Shown here: one piece after another, positions 19,670-31,600 of the stretch
How positions within the stretch are numbered: the stretch's first letter is position 1
How the letters are laid out: each line of letters begins with the position of its first letter
Virus record (IMG/VR): IMGVR_UViG_3300025647_000063
Span: 1 to 45,480 of that record
Source of the DNA: a virus
Length of the DNA stretch: 45,480 bases
Reading direction: 5' to 3' (one strand)
Made by a program: the position numbers and the translations under genes
The notes under the pieces: model-generated
The model's database searches: none
What the model saw: only the letters and a program-made list of their open reading frames with translations
Told to the model about the DNA's origin: nothing

Positions 19670-19957
19670 GTGAAATTTATAATATTACTGTGTGTGTTAA
19701 TTACCGGTTGTGCATCACCTACTTATGTAAAAGTAGGAACCGGTTATAAAGTAAATGAAACCAACATTGATTGGAAAGATGGAAGCAAAAGCGATCCTGT
19801 TGTTGCCCGTATAGAAGTATTTAAAAAATCGGGTGCTGTAACGTATGGGGTTTCGCATTCTAGCCAATGGTTCCAGGGGTGGCCGGTAAACAATGAATTG
19901 GAATACGCTAAAACTGAGGTATTCATTGATTATACTTTTACGATAGGGGGTAAATAA
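19670..19957 (+). CDS. Small lipoprotein (95 aa)
   Basis: Starts with GTG after GGGG. The signal sequence MKFIILLCVLITGCASP has a clear lipobox (ITGC); the mature protein would be lipid-anchored at Cys15. The mature part is strand-rich (KVGTGYKVNETNI; FIDYTFTIGG). A lipoprotein inside a replication operon is odd. It could block receptor or exclude superinfection, as other phage lipoproteins do (inference), or act in lysis. Confidence 0.75.
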   Translation: MKFIILLCVLITGCASPTYVKVGTGYKVNETNIDWKDGSKSDPVVARIEVFKKSGAVTYGVSHSSQWFQGWPVNNELEYAKTEVFIDYTFTIGGK

Positions 19958-19958
19958 T

Positions 19959-20186
19959 ATGCTTGCTTTTTTTATGGGTTTAACGCTCTTAACTATAATG
20001 TTTAGTCTTGGTGGTATCGTTGTTGGGATTCATATTTCGACTAAGTTATGGGGGTTAAGTGAGTCATCCGAACCATTATGGTTTAAACAATTTATGAACA
20101 AATTTAGTAAAGGTTTATTCTATTCATTTGGGTTTTTTGTAATTGAAATTATGATTTTAATTGTAATTGGAGTTAAGGGACTATGA
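19959..20186 (+). CDS. Two-helix membrane protein (75 aa)
   Basis: Two hydrophobic segments are clear: MLAFFMGLTLLTIMFSLGG and GLFYSFGFFVIEIMILIVIG, with a basic loop between (KLWGLSESSEPLWFKQF). Its size and topology fit a small holin or an inner-membrane accessory. Starts 1 nt after the lipoprotein gene, so the two probably act together at the envelope. No direct evidence for lysis. Confidence 0.7.
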   Translation: MLAFFMGLTLLTIMFSLGGIVVGIHISTKLWGLSESSEPLWFKQFMNKFSKGLFYSFGFFVIEIMILIVIGVKGL

Positions 20187-20360: not shown

Positions 20361-20573
20361 ATGTCAGAACGTATTAGAAATGTATGTGTGGCATACACCA
20401 AAGGCACGAAAGCTGCCAAAAAGCATGGTAAACACATCGACCGCGCAAATTGCCCTTATGGTGAAACCAAGATTGAGTTAAAGCATTGGTGGCATGGTGG
20501 ATATTACGACCAGTTAAACAATAACACCGATACCACTTTATTAATTAATTCGGATGAACCAAGTGACGAATAA
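20361..20573 (+). CDS. RMF-like protein (70 aa)
   Basis: Residues 11-52 follow the ribosome modulation factor pattern: a Tyr/Ala/Gly-containing helix (GTKAAKKHGK), CPY (31-33), then HWWHGGY at the place of RMF's WLGGW. RMF pairs 70S ribosomes into inactive 100S dimers. Here it is shorter of basic residues at the start and has an acidic tail (DEPSDE). It may tune host translation during phage DNA synthesis or bind polymerase. Coupled to the polymerase by a 20-nt overlap. Confidence 0.55.
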   Translation: MSERIRNVCVAYTKGTKAAKKHGKHIDRANCPYGETKIELKHWWHGGYYDQLNNNTDTTLLINSDEPSDE

Positions 20574-22626
20574 AACAAATTTATCAGTGTACGATTTAGA
20601 ATCCTGGCCTAATTATTTTAGTGCTGCGTTTTATGATATGGATAACCAACAAGTTTTATTCTTCGAGGTGTCCTGGCGTAGAAATGATTTACCGGCATTA
20701 CGTCATCACCTAAACGCATACCGTGAACAAGGTATTCGAATGGTTGGTTTCAACAATGATGCTTATGACTATTCGGTATTGCATCCTGTAATGACTGACG
20801 AAAATATCAGAAACGCTTATGATATTTATTTGGTTAATGAACGGATCATAAATACACCATGGGAAAGACGATTCGATAACAACATTCCAGATTGGAAAAA
20901 GCTTATCGTACAAATTGACCTAATGAAAATTCATCATTTTGACAACCTTGCAAAAGCAACATCATTGAAAAAGATTGAATTTGCTATGCGCTCACCAACA
21001 TTAGAGGATTTACCCTATCCACCGGGAATACCACTGGAAGAAACCGACCATGTTGCCGACACCGTAATGAACTATAACGTGCATGACATTATGAGGACCG
21101 TGGATTTTCTAATTATATCGTTACCGGCGTTAGAATTTAGAGACGTGATGACAGAAAAATACGGGATGAATTTCACCAACTTTAACGATACTAAGATTGG
21201 TAAAAAGTATTTCGTAAAACAGTTAGAGGCTGCAGGGGTCGAGTGTTACGGTCCTAATGGTGCGCGTCAAACGTGGCGGGATAGTATTCATCTTGGTAGT
21301 CTAATATTGCCGTACATTCAGTTTGAGCGTTACGAGTTTAACCAGGTGTTGCGAATACTCCATGAAACGACCATACAAGAGACTAAGGGTGCGTTTTCCA
21401 CATCGGCTGTAGTTGATGGGTTTAGCTTTGATTTCGCGTTAGGCGGCATCCACGGAAGTCTAAGCGGGGTTAATGTTCATAGTGATGACGAATTCATTAT
21501 GATTGATGCTGACGTTGCGAGTTATTACCCGAACGTTGCTATTAAAAACCGGATATTCCCCGAACACCTTTCATCTGTATTTTGTGATGTTTACGATGAT
21601 GTATTTGAACAACGTAAAAAGTACGACAAGAAAACGGTTGAAAACAAGGCAATGAAACTGGCCCTTAATGGTGTTTACGGTGACAGCAACAGTAAATTTA
21701 GCCCGTTCTATGACCCTGCATACACCATGGCTACCACAATTAATGGTCAGTTGATGTTATGTATGTTGGCCGAACAATTAATGAAAATACCACAATTGCA
21801 GATGATACAGATCAACACTGACGGTCTTACGGTCCGGTTTCCACGTCAATACAAATTTCACTATGATGCCTTGTGCGATTGGTGGCAAAAGCTCACTTGT
21901 TTAACACTTGAATTTGTCAATTATAAATCGATGTATATTCGTGATGTTAATAATTACATTGCGGTACCGGTTGACAAACCAATCAAGTACAAAGGCGTTT
22001 ACGTACCATTCGGCGCCCATGAGGACCATGACGATTCTTTAGAGTGGCACAAGAACCATTCTATGCTTATCGTCAAAAAAGCTGCTGTAGCGGCAATACT
22101 GGAAGGAATACCCGTAAGGAAATTTATCACTGAACACAAAGACATTTATGATTTCTTTAGTTTAGCCAAGGTAGCTAGGACCGAAAGTTTACAATTGCTA
22201 CACGATGTTAAATGGGATGGTGTTGTAATTTACCGCGACCAGGTTTATCAAGATTTACAAAAAACATCACGATACCTGGTGACTAACTCCGGTCATAAGT
22301 TAGTTAAGATTATGAAACCACTGGTTAGAAAAACCAAAATAGTGCAGATGTATTTACCCGGCTGGGTAAGTAAAAAAATCACAGGCCACAATAAGAATAT
22401 AAGTGTTGAAACCGAACACGAATACAACAACGCTTACTTACTTGGTTATCGTACAAAAGACGGGGGGTCGTATCGCAGAGGACCGAATAGAGTAATGGAA
22501 ATAGAAGCTGACCGTATGTGTACTATTTACAATACTGTTGTTGATGGTGCTGTATATGATATTGATTATAACTATTACATTGATGAAGCTGAAAAGCTGG
22601 TCAATGGTGTTATGGGGATTAAATAG
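20554..22626 (+). CDS. Family B DNA polymerase (690 aa)
   Basis: Exonuclease domain: SVYDLESW (Exo I, D14 and E16), MVGFNNDAYDYSVL (Exo II) and YNVHDIMRT (Exo III). Polymerase motif A DADVASYYPN (near 317), motif B KLALNGVYGD (near 368) and motif C QINTDGLTV (near 421). Motif C has NTDG in place of the usual DTDS, so the first Asp is replaced but the second, catalytic, one remains. Length is short for the family. It replicates the phage genome with the SSB, helicase and primase encoded nearby. Confidence 0.9.
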   Translation: MNQVTNKTNLSVYDLESWPNYFSAAFYDMDNQQVLFFEVSWRRNDLPALRHHLNAYREQGIRMVGFNNDAYDYSVLHPVMTDENIRNAYDIYLVNERIINTPWERRFDNNIPDWKKLIVQIDLMKIHHFDNLAKATSLKKIEFAMRSPTLEDLPYPPGIPLEETDHVADTVMNYNVHDIMRTVDFLIISLPALEFRDVMTEKYGMNFTNFNDTKIGKKYFVKQLEAAGVECYGPNGARQTWRDSIHLGSLILPYIQFERYEFNQVLRILHETTIQETKGAFSTSAVVDGFSFDFALGGIHGSLSGVNVHSDDEFIMIDADVASYYPNVAIKNRIFPEHLSSVFCDVYDDVFEQRKKYDKKTVENKAMKLALNGVYGDSNSKFSPFYDPAYTMATTINGQLMLCMLAEQLMKIPQLQMIQINTDGLTVRFPRQYKFHYDALCDWWQKLTCLTLEFVNYKSMYIRDVNNYIAVPVDKPIKYKGVYVPFGAHEDHDDSLEWHKNHSMLIVKKAAVAAILEGIPVRKFITEHKDIYDFFSLAKVARTESLQLLHDVKWDGVVIYRDQVYQDLQKTSRYLVTNSGHKLVKIMKPLVRKTKIVQMYLPGWVSKKITGHNKNISVETEHEYNNAYLLGYRTKDGGSYRRGPNRVMEIEADRMCTIYNTVVDGAVYDIDYNYYIDEAEKLVNGVMGIK

Positions 22627-22817: not shown

Positions 22818-22985
22818 TTATTTGTTTTTAACGTCACTGAAACGTAATGCCAACAAAGAAAGAACAGACTTAACTTTACCCAAAATTTCGTCATCTTTCT
22901 TTGTTGGTGTAATTTCAGCAATTACGCTTGCCAATGCTACAACAGCCGTAACTATGTTAAAAATTGTCAATAGTGTATCGCCCAT
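22818..22985 (-). CDS. Holin-like small membrane protein (55 aa)
   Basis: One hydrophobic helix near the N-terminus (LTIFNIVTAVVALASVIAEI), then a charged linker (TPTKKDDEILGKV) and a second amphipathic helix. Small proteins with this plan are common near the end of late operons in marine phages and are treated as holin-like. It is the last gene of the leftward late operon. Ribosome site AAGGATC. No endolysin is recognisable next to it. Confidence 0.55.
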   Translation of the reverse strand: MGDTLLTIFNIVTAVVALASVIAEITPTKKDDEILGKVKSVLSLLALRFSDVKNK

Positions 22986-23004: not shown

Positions 23005-23460
23005 TTATTGATGATGGTAATTGCTTTCTACTTCTTTGGTAACAGAACTGAGTCTGTCTAACGCTTTACGGATAGGGGTCAACGAATCGTGTAATATAAT
23101 AGTTCTTATCATATCCTGTATATCATCACCTTTTCTAAAATAAGCAATGCTACCAAATAAAAACGCCTTACCTCTATCGTCAAGTGATTCACTACTTGTT
23201 AAAAACATGACTGGTATTTGACTTGTTTCAGGGTTGTTGAACAAATCCTCACATACATTTAAACCATTTCTTTTTGGCATAAACACATCGAGTACAATAA
23301 AATCCGGTTTGTGTTCTATTGTCTTTTCTATTACTAATAAAGGATCATCAAGGGTTATACATTTGAATTCAACAATTTCGGTAGATTCAAAATACCCTTT
23401 AATTATTTCAAGCGTAAGAAGATTATCATCGACAATTAAAACTGTTATCACACTGTTCAT
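23005..23460 (-). CDS. CheY-like response regulator (receiver domain, 151 aa)
   Basis: A complete receiver domain: D11-D12 (LIVDDN) for Mg2+, phosphoacceptor D58 (IVLDVFMPKRNG), T88 (VMFLTSSES), Y107 and K110 (AYFRKG). The C-terminal 30 residues add a helix with no DNA-binding or enzyme domain. All residues for phosphorylation are present, so it can probably accept phosphate from a host histidine kinase. Coupled by an ATGA overlap to the membrane coiled-coil gene 23457-23816. Such a gene is rare in tailed phages. Confidence 0.85.
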   Translation of the reverse strand: MNSVITVLIVDDNLLTLEIIKGYFESTEIVEFKCITLDDPLLVIEKTIEHKPDFIVLDVFMPKRNGLNVCEDLFNNPETSQIPVMFLTSSESLDDRGKAFLFGSIAYFRKGDDIQDMIRTIILHDSLTPIRKALDRLSSVTKEVESNYHHQ

Positions 23461-23816
23461 TTGCCCACCAATTTAAGTAATAAGTCACTCATGTTTGTAC
23501 GTATGATGTTGACCGTTTGGTTTATCTGAGTTGTCAAAGCACCCATGTCATTACGTATTTGGTCTACGGATTTTTCAATAGGTTTTATTTTATCTTTAAA
23601 TATATCATTTATTCTTGTTTCAGTTACCAAGGTATCTTTTACAATCTGTTCAACCCTGATTTCAGTAACCTTACCCGTCAATGCTGTTTCAATTAAGTTC
23701 ATCCTTTTAGATGTACTTTGTATCCAATTATAGAGCATTAAACACGTTACACCAATAGCACTGGTAAGTATCCCACACACCCATAGTATAACTGATAACT
23801 CTATTTCAAAAGTCAT
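23457..23816 (-). CDS. Membrane-anchored coiled-coil protein (119 aa)
   Basis: One N-terminal transmembrane helix (LSVILWVCGILTSAIGVTCL), then a long helical region with heptad spacing (IKPIEKSVDQIRNDMGALTT). Topology fits an i-spanin-like protein or a small membrane adaptor. The stop overlaps the start of the response regulator gene, so the two proteins are likely made in step. Promoter-like TATAAT lies at about 23830-23840 on this strand. Exact function unknown. Confidence 0.65.
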   Translation of the reverse strand: MTFEIELSVILWVCGILTSAIGVTCLMLYNWIQSTSKRMNLIETALTGKVTEIRVEQIVKDTLVTETRINDIFKDKIKPIEKSVDQIRNDMGALTTQINQTVNIIRTNMSDLLLKLVGK

Positions 23817-23956: not shown

Positions 23957-24523
23957 TCATTTTAGTATTGATGATGGTGGTAAATTACCGTTATGTTGAC
24001 TAACCAACTCGGCACCCGCTGTATATATACTATTGTACCCCACTACACGCCAGTAATTCGGTAACACTTCCGTTGTGTCGTTAAAATTCAATAATAGTTC
24101 GGTTGCTGAAATAACCATTACACTGTCTTGATGTTCGTCTGTGTTTCTGGTGTCATCACCAAAGGTCACATCGACTCGATCAAACGCGGTTAAATCTACA
24201 CCTGTAAAAATTAAAGAAATAGTATTATTAGTATCCGATATTATATTTCTACCACAACCAAATACAGTTTTAATCCCACAAAGTACAGTCAAACTGGTTA
24301 AAGCATCTGGATCAACAAATGCACCAAAACCACCAAACGCACCGAAGCCTGTTAGCTCAAGCTCGTAAGGTGTACCAGCAATGATATTGTCCATGCCCCT
24401 GCTGTTTACCAATCCCATGTTTAAAGTTGACTCGTTACCATCTGGATCAGTTATTACAATTGTTGATATTGGGCTTTCAGGACCAGCAATTGCAAGACCT
24501 GTTAATGTTGTTGAAATAGTCAT
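23957..24523 (-). CDS. Hypothetical virion-region protein (188 aa)
   Basis: Strand-rich with Thr, Asp and Gly (ISTIVITDPDGNESTLN; GFGAFGGFGAFVDPDAL). It looks like an immunoglobulin-like or jelly-roll extracellular domain, as in phage decoration or fibre-tip proteins. It is the last of the tail genes before a 140-bp gap (23817-23956), in which I see no gene. Ribosome site GGCGGT. Confidence 0.55.
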   Translation of the reverse strand: MTISTTLTGLAIAGPESPISTIVITDPDGNESTLNMGLVNSRGMDNIIAGTPYELELTGFGAFGGFGAFVDPDALTSLTVLCGIKTVFGCGRNIISDTNNTISLIFTGVDLTAFDRVDVTFGDDTRNTDEHQDSVMVISATELLLNFNDTTEVLPNYWRVVGYNSIYTAGAELVSQHNGNLPPSSILK

Positions 24524-28629: not shown

Positions 28630-31600
28630 TTATGAGTAAGGTGCGCCACTAGCATCAAAGTATTGAGCCTGTGAATCTGTATTTCTAATTATCTGTATAA
28701 TATGGGCTTGCTGTCTTATAAGCACACTACCTGAATTTACAGTCATTCTAAGTTTGAATCGTGCCTCTGCGTTTGCTGCAAGTGTTACGAAAAAAGGAGG
28801 ACCAGAATAATTATACAAACCGCTTGCGTTATTAATCGGCCAAATTGTACCCGCATTAGTTTGTAGGGAAAAGTCAACTGAGCTATATGCCGAACCAGAT
28901 GATGTACACCAGGGTAATGGTATTATTACTGTTCTACTGTACGGTACAGCACTAATTACTACGTTTATTATTATTAAATCTACCGTGGTTGATGTCAAAG
29001 TACCTGTTGCATTCATTGTGAACACACCGGCGGCGGCGGTATCACCTATTATTTCTTCCGCATATAAACCACCATTAAAAACCGCTTTATTCAACCCGCT
29101 GTCAAACTCAATAAAAACATTATTATTGTTATCAATGAATTGAGCTATGTCGGTTTTTATTTTTAATGATGTTGCTGTTGGTGTAGCACCGAGTTGAATA
29201 AAACCAAGTACACCACCAGCACTAACCGTAAGTTGTGAAACTGCTCGATAACCGTCTAAATCATCATCTAACGTTGACGCTAACGTTAATGCACTTGTGG
29301 CGGTTGAACTGACACCCGTTACTGTACTTGATAAACTGGATATTGCTGTTGCATTGGTATCCGCTTTACTGTCTGCAGTTCCAGCCAATGTGTTCGCTGT
29401 ACCGGCTAACGTTAATGCACTTGTGGCGGTTGAACTGACACCCGTTACTGTACTTGATAAACTGGATATTGCTGTTGCATTGGTATCCGCTTTACTGTCT
29501 GCAGTTCCAGCCAATGTGTTCGCTGTACCGGCTAACGTTAATGCACTTGTGGCGGTTGAACTGACACCCGTTACTGTACTTGACAACGTGGATATTGCTG
29601 TTGCGTTGGTATCCGCTTTACCGTCTGCAGTTCCAGCCAATGTGTTCGCTGTACCGGCTAACGTTAATGCACTTGTAGCAGTTGAACTGACACCCGTTAC
29701 TGTACTTGACAACGTGGATATTGCTGTTGCGTTGGTATCCGCTTTACCGTCTGCAGATAATGCAAGCGCCGATGTAGCACCCAAACCAGTAATAGGATCA
29801 GCAATGGTGTTACTGATATTGGTTATGGACAGTGAATTTCCATCAACTTCTAATTGTGCCGATTGAACCAAACCATACGTTGCCGCTAAACCTGTTGTTG
29901 CGTTGTTTACAGTTGCGCTTACCGCACTTATAGCACTTGTATTACCATCAACATCAATATCAACTTGGTCCAATCTGTCAATGTTTGCATTTATCAAACT
30001 GGTTAAATCGGTACCTAACGAGGATACAGTCAAACTAAGTGCATCAAATGCTGTAGTGTTTCCATCAATATCAGTTTCAGCTTGTGTGATTCTACCAGCT
30101 AAAGCCGTTACACTAGAACCTTGTGATGCTGTCAATGATTCTAAGGTAAGTATTGATTGAGCTAACGAACCGCTTGGACCAATATCGATATTTAATTGGT
30201 TTATGGCATTGGCAAATGTGAAATTACGTTCACCCTGTTCGTAATTCTTCACACCCGAATTGACAAGCTGATTTAATAAATCAAGTTTGGTGTCGTAATC
30301 TTCTAATTGCAAAATAACTAAACTTGATACTTGATTGGTTATTTTACCATTGGCCGCGTCAATTTCTAACTGTGCATCAGTTATTAAACCATTCTGCAAG
30401 TCAAAATCATCTTGTACGGTTTGGGCGTAAGCTGTGAACGTTCCGGTATAACCATCAATGAAAACACCGGCTTCATTGGCTTTCAACACCACATCATTAT
30501 CAATTATGGTCTGTCTGGTAGCAATCAGACTGATATAGCTGTCAATTCCGTTCAGCGTGGTTTCGACGTTACTGAATGTAACCGTATTAGCGTTGTAATC
30601 AGTATTACTAACCTTACTGGTTATTTGACCAGCATTAGCGTCAATATCAATTTCAGCTTGTGTCACACGACCTGTTAAGTTGATTAAATCCTGTGTTTGG
30701 GCATCCGCTTTTCCTATTGTGATTGACTTGATAATAAATTCATCAGCAACAGTTTCACCCAACATTAACCTTACACGATTTACTGTACCGGAATAGTTAG
30801 ATAAACCAGTGAAATCAACCAACAATATAACCGGTCCTGTTAGCGCCGGTTCGTTAATTATATTTGCAAATGTTTCTGTACTTGCATTATCACGTTCAAT
30901 AATTACGGTACCGTCCCAACCTGTACCCGCTGTTCTTTCAATTGCAATTCTTAACAGTAGATTTTCAGTGGCTACATAATCTAATGCACTGTTTTCAATA
31001 TCAGCCCATGTAGTCGTAACCTGGTTTAACCCACTTGTAATTGTACCGTTTACAGCAACCCAACCCTGAACACTATCAAAGAAATTAAAACTGTGAGCAG
31101 GTTCAAGAGCCGCTATTGATTCGGACACAATAGCTGTTGCTGTTGCTGTTATTTGACCGGGAACAAGAGATAATTCAGCACTCAAATCATTGATTGAGTT
31201 TTCGTTTAATTCAACACGTTCAACGGTTGCTGTAATGCTGGCATTAACACCATCAATCAATAATGAAGCCTGAGTAAATACAGTATCGGTATAATTGAAA
31301 GCTCTGTTAACAATAGTTCCTGTAGACGGATCTATCCATATTAAAGCATCAACCAATGTTTCACCGGCTAATTGTCGTCTGCGTAATTCTTCCCTGGCTG
31401 CTGCAGTATCCGCAATACTTGATAATAATTGAACATCTGTGTTTTGACGATTTAGTATTTCTTGTCTTAACGCATTATTTGTATCAGCTCTAAAATCAAT
31501 AAAATCAACATCGATTTGTGCAATTGTTGTGTCAATATCATCAATTCTTAAATCAATCAAATCTGTTATTGCTTCGATTTGCGGTACAATTATTTCAACC

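Follow-up and report, generated by a model that had tools for sequence, protein, structure and literature searches.

A single-domain response regulator and a small membrane-anchored coiled-coil protein, encoded by two overlapping genes at the end of a phage late operon, recur as a pair in at least 16 phage records other than the one analysed here, and adjoin or sit within lysis genes in all lineages examined but one. The sequence-only reading of the window (the whole 45,480-nucleotide stretch, a 45.5-kb virus record from a marine phage) had known of no other tailed phage with this pairing, which the search proved wrong. The anatomy of membrane coil gene, receiver gene and lysis genes is well supported; the mechanism that we infer from it is tentative and, in our judgement, somewhat short of probable, namely that the membrane-tethered receiver may take phosphate from host kinases or acetyl phosphate and adjust lysis.

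The window carries a minus-strand operon for packaging, head and tail proteins (TerL, portal, protease, major head protein, tape measure), which ends near 22.8 kb and there converges with a plus-strand operon whose genes include a helicase and a DNA polymerase. The late operon finishes, in order, with genes for a probable tail fibre of 724 aa, a 188-aa protein, the membrane anchor, the receiver and a 55-aa protein. The features concerned are as follows.

23957..24523, minus strand: 188-aa protein encoded between the probable tail fibre gene and the pair; function unassigned by homology
23457..23816, minus strand: membrane anchor gene, 119 aa, ATG start (hydropathy and charges, profile match, low-confidence helical model)
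23457..23460, minus strand: ATGA stop/start overlap of 4 nt between the anchor stop and the receiver ATG (sequence)
23005..23460, minus strand: single-domain response regulator (REC), 151 aa, ATG start (Pfam Response_reg, AlphaFold model, conservation of the phosphorylation set)
22818..22985, minus strand: small holin-like membrane protein of 55 aa, containing a single hydrophobic stretch and the motif TPTKKDDE (phrog_9685, 3.3e-13)
20554..22626, plus strand: DNA polymerase gene of the convergent operon, marking where the late operon ends (45% identity by tblastn to DNA polymerases of Edwardsiella phages)

Both open reading frames of the pair lie where they had been reported, and the receiver ATG does overlap the stop codon of the membrane coil gene, an arrangement that likely couples their translation. 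Promoter-like sites around the pair were at chance level only, and the 188-aa protein had no match in Pfam, PHROGs, NCBIfam or the PDB. The receiver matches Pfam Response_reg (PF00072) over residues 7-120 (2.5e-16, 60.2 bits against a cut-off of 30.2), with D11, D12, D58, T88, Y107 and K110 all present as had been claimed, and with K-G where a K-P pair is usual. Its AlphaFold model (pLDDT 83.5) has the (beta-alpha)5 fold, with helix 5 spanning residues 114 to 149; Pfam, NCBIfam and AlphaFold revealed no output domain, a single helical C-tail being all that extends beyond REC. No second receiver was found in the window's genome. The window genes scanned included no recognisable kinase, which leaves the host or a small molecule as the source of any phosphate. 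The anchor begins with an acidic N-terminus, followed by a hydrophobic segment at residues 9-27 (Kyte-Doolittle 2.23), a basic flank and long helices, which also follow the membrane segment in its low-confidence AlphaFold model (pLDDT 67, pTM 0.27). The flanking charges predict an N-out, C-in topology, so that the coil would share the cytosolic side of the membrane with the receiver.

Searches with tblastn detected the receiver in Alteromonas phages from unrelated families, and the carriers of the pair comprise Autographiviridae, Schitoviridae, one myovirus and several siphoviruses, most of which infect Alteromonas. In Foturvirus H4/4 and R8W (Autographiviridae) and in siphophages R9Y1 and R9Y2, a small membrane gene overlaps the receiver ATG by 4 nt; the pair is also present in schitoviruses V19 and A5, siphophages XX1924 and PB15, myovirus V22, two relatives (L107 and L108), five environmental virus contigs (L007, L008, L009, L018 and L019) and a probable phage contig binned with the metagenome-assembled genome TMED12. 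The last of these (L023, NHBR02000063.1), a 48.7-kb contig in the 'Muricauda sp. TMED12' bin, looks like phage, and its presence there is probably a binning error. Across the 17 pairs tabulated, the two genes overlap by 4 nt in 12 and by 11 nt in one, and are separated by gaps of 1-4 nt in the other four. Neighbouring genes resembling the pair by size, single membrane segment and spacing make up about 3% of gene neighbours in the window (2/60), so that recurrence of the pair with unrelated partners exceeds chance. The pair was absent from the stretches read of L109, L113 and L114, which are distant relatives of the window by DNA polymerase, and, judging by record names and sizes, most non-Alteromonas receiver matches in the phage collection resemble host DNA or metagenomic fragments without annotation. 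A different context was seen in Stenotrophomonas phage Bhz63 (L118, 3986-5532), where a full regulator lies beside a sensor-kinase-like gene annotated as PRK11100.

The membrane partners belong to at least two unrelated families. No BLAST homologue of the window anchor was found in the phage collection; its relation to other anchors was recovered by profile only, residues 66-117 aligning with a profile built from the H4/4, R8W, R9Y, U30100, U38545 and TMED12 anchors (hhalign probability 88%, E 3e-6). Profile comparison provided no convincing link between the window anchor and those of V19 and V22, and the V22 and A5 anchors, whose hydrophobic segments are weak (1.2-1.3), have no demonstrable relation to it. 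The partner in XX1924 and PB15 is of another, XhlA-like family, with its membrane segment at the C-terminus (XX1924 against phrog_937, 1.2e-12). The hemolysin XhlA resembles the window anchor in being a small one-segment membrane protein with a coil in a lysis cassette, but the window's segment is N-terminal and its anchor matches no family, an XhlA/hemolysin profile match being confined to the XX1924 anchor; we know of no XhlA that works with a receiver. Since the partners come from two or more unrelated families, the pairing apparently came about on more than one occasion. The possibility that the anchor is an i-spanin of the Rz type was considered and rejected, as its charges predict a cytosolic coil and L009, A5 and L107 have separate Rz/Rz1-type genes.

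Genes found near the pair encode GH108 or M15 endolysins, DUF5675 proteins, three-transmembrane (3TM) holins and Rz/Rz1, and linked endolysin, holin and spanin genes occur to varying extent in A5, L009, XX1924, PB15 and R9Y. The receiver gene is followed by a GH108 endolysin (5e-24) in R9Y1, by DUF5675 in L009 and XX1924, by GTA_holin_3TM (1.4e-14) in XX1924 and by an M15 peptidase in PB15, which also has a 3TM holin by PHROG (2.6e-40); in A5 the genes after it encode Rz-like spanins, among them a lipoprotein of Rz1 type in an embedded frame, as well as an endolysin and a protein that has two membrane segments. In H4/4, a gene annotated as a class II holin directly precedes the pair, and a phrog_2524 membrane protein is encoded on its other side. 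The TMED12 contig is laid out as the window is, its pair being convergent with a DNA polymerase gene, and Vibrio phages related to the window (TerL about 60%) encode an amidase, a membrane protein and a lipoprotein at the place of the pair, without a receiver. In the window itself, the only candidate lysis-cassette component seen is the 55-aa gene, which begins 19 nt past the receiver and belongs to a family without known function, phrog_9685, a relative of which lies between DUF5675 and Rz/Rz1 in L009. A small membrane protein with one hydrophobic stretch does follow the receiver, as the earlier reading had it, and the name holin is fair for it but putative. No endolysin was recognised among the window genes scanned with Pfam and PHROGs: the phage may lack one, encode it beyond the ends of the record or use one of a type that escapes recognition; the lysis reading of the window therefore draws on the 55-aa gene and synteny.

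A mechanism consistent with this anatomy would run as follows. The anchor would be inserted in the inner membrane, coil towards the cytosol, and would tether the receiver there, probably by way of the extended helix 5 of the receiver. Phosphate for D58 would come from histidine kinases of the host or from acetyl phosphate, and the resulting change in the alpha4-beta5-alpha5 face would alter the action of the anchored complex on the neighbouring holin or on other lysis proteins, so that the onset of lysis would be tuned to the signalling or energy state of the host. Binding of anchor to receiver, phosphorylation by the host and an effect on lysis are thus the three suppositions on which the proposal depends. 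Among the roles suggested earlier (timing lysis, stopping chemotaxis or draining a two-component pathway), lysis timing is the best option because the neighbourhood is conserved. Several considerations point the other way: genes beside lysis genes can be late cargo without a role in lysis, the V22 and A5 anchors have only the weak hydrophobic segments described above, and the V19 pair, whose receiver is without D58 and K110, is at a distance from recognised lysis genes, the one exception to the neighbourhood.

The V19 receiver (L010, 5998-6450), possibly a pseudo-receiver, has lost both residues, yet its gene retains an 11-nt overlap with a preceding small membrane gene. Retention of such a pair is what would be expected if the receiver served only as a structural adaptor of the anchor, phosphorylation being irrelevant. 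We give this explanation little credence, as 15 of 16 receiver homologues retain every phosphorylation residue (with S or T at position 88) despite mutual identities of only about 26-36% among homologue groups. Both genes are under purifying selection, with dN/dS of 0.06-0.20 for receivers and 0.03-0.28 for anchors in those pairs where it could be computed, dS being saturated in more distant pairs. In the receiver tree, R9Y, U30100, TMED12, H4/4 and R8W form a well-supported group, which the window joins weakly and on a long branch; V22/A5 and XX1924/PB15 are likewise on long branches.

The tyrosine at position 107 had been read as CheY-like. The residue is present, but no CheY-specific meaning attaches to it, as tyrosine at this position is generic in the homologue alignment and is also found in the closest Alteromonadaceae receivers; these are parts of c-di-GMP-type regulators, and the best PDB sequence match is PleD rather than CheY, which speaks against the chemotaxis option as well. 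A related explanation is that the receiver acts in the manner of CheY or PilG on flagella or type IV pili, sparing released phage from re-adsorption or excluding other phages. Y107 and K110 would suit such a role, several carriers of the pair have tail fibre genes alongside, and a Nat Commun 2023 paper puts the gene in a host recognition module (PMC10579305). We nevertheless consider it improbable, given that structural alignment with E. coli CheY yields only 18% identity, that the NCBIfam CheY equivalog model scores the H4/4 receiver at 47.6 bits against a cut-off of 189 and is outside the 25 best models for the window receiver, and that membrane anchoring is unlike CheY. The receiver gene of R8W has been called PhoB (PMC8228385), and the PhoB model is the best NCBIfam match for the H4/4, V22 and XX1924 receivers. 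A role as a PhoB-type auxiliary gene that targets the phosphate genes of the host, which was the proposal for R8W, is very improbable all the same: scores reach only 44-77 bits against a cut-off of 296, only the receiver part of the model is matched and the C-terminal DNA-binding domain is lacking.

By profile, the closest PDB receiver is PleD (1.3e-29, the next protein being at 1e-20), and the structures of WspR and PA3702 align with the window receiver over 147-152 columns, extended helix 5 included. Receivers of the PleD/WspR REC-GGDEF type are thus the closest known relatives by sequence, from which the window receiver differs in lacking GGDEF and in having its membrane anchor encoded by a separate gene; the NCBIfam PleD/REC-GGDEF model scores 48 bits against a cut-off of 474, the receiver consisting of REC only. 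Within 199 genomes of the family reached through L033 (Marinifaba, Alteromonadaceae), the closest receivers, as read from their sequences, are parts of multidomain REC-GGDEF-EAL and REC-HD-GYP proteins. These multidomain contexts, together with the lack of any anchor match in the same 199 genomes (a search run without a positive control), led us to set aside a prophage origin.

The same relationships bear on the chief rival to the lysis reading, in which the anchored receiver is a decoy or dominant negative that draws phosphate away from membrane histidine kinases, or forms mixed dimers with the receivers of host c-di-GMP regulators, and so blunts envelope-stress or surface-life responses late in infection. 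A lone receiver without an output domain, whose closest host counterparts are in REC-GGDEF-EAL and REC-HD-GYP proteins and whose closest PDB chain is PleD, would suit this purpose, a membrane tether would put it near kinases, and the PIT4 protein of phage LSL4 binds several histidine kinases (PMC10714779). We regard the decoy as unlikely, though by no means negligible: it leaves the repeated location among lysis genes unexplained, and the end of the late operon is a late moment for blunting a response. PIT4 resembles the window receiver as a phage protein acting on host two-component systems, but it is an early protein with a motility phenotype (PMC10714779). A bacterial parallel is offered by a single-domain response regulator of exopolysaccharide synthesis, described as an output-less receiver acting by protein contact at a membrane-linked enzyme, which differs in not being viral and in having another partner (PMC12802240).

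The 'CheY-like' and 'PhoB' genes of Alteromonas phages V22, A5 and R8W are small receivers that share this late location and are either homologous or analogous, and in the records of all three a small membrane or helical gene precedes the receiver, as in the window. Their publications present them differently, as accessories of metabolism or signalling that in two cases form part of a host recognition module, without the membrane partner, the overlap or the lysis neighbourhood. The V22 gene is listed as a class II auxiliary gene (PMC7289586), and the paper on A5, V22 and P24 assigned the gene and its 'unknown' neighbours to the host recognition module (PMC10579305). The R9Y paper mentions a lysis-related module, the words response regulator, receiver, lysozyme and holin being absent (PMC9430817). 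No published link of the receiver to lysis or to a membrane partner was found in the open-access literature.

What sets the moment of lysis in phages is known mainly from intrinsic holin clocks and superinfection-sensing antiholins. If the lysis reading is true, a receiver inside lysis cassettes would represent a new type of input, host signalling, into lysis timing. A bolder generalisation, possible but on the doubtful side, is that the pair is a widespread marine-phage module, attached independently to unrelated membrane coil proteins, in which an anchored phosphorylatable receiver would wire host two-component signalling or the acetyl-phosphate level directly into holin firing and so serve as a post-translational lysis timer. 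The presence of the pair in cultured Alteromonas phages with available hosts makes these proposals directly testable, and suggests that published alterophage 'CheY/PhoB auxiliary metabolic genes' and 'host recognition module' genes be re-examined as lysis-linked.

Four further features of the window were observed elsewhere in its sequence. The plus-strand operon contains, at 19670-20186 (+), a gene for a lipoprotein-like 95-aa protein and, 1 nt further on, one for a 75-aa hydrophobic protein, neither with a family match. Near the left end of the record, a 25-bp unit (GCCTGATAGCATGGCTCTATGGGTA) is repeated in tandem about ten times at positions 188-441, and a 16-bp unit (TCGATTAAACGGTTAT) forms a perfect tandem repeat of 4.8 copies at 2902-2978, within a low-GC region. 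Inside the gene for a 1837-aa tail protein, about 3.8 near-identical 126-bp repeats at 29279-29756 encode repeated 'TNATAISTLSSTVTGVSSTATSALTLAGTANTLAGT' segments.
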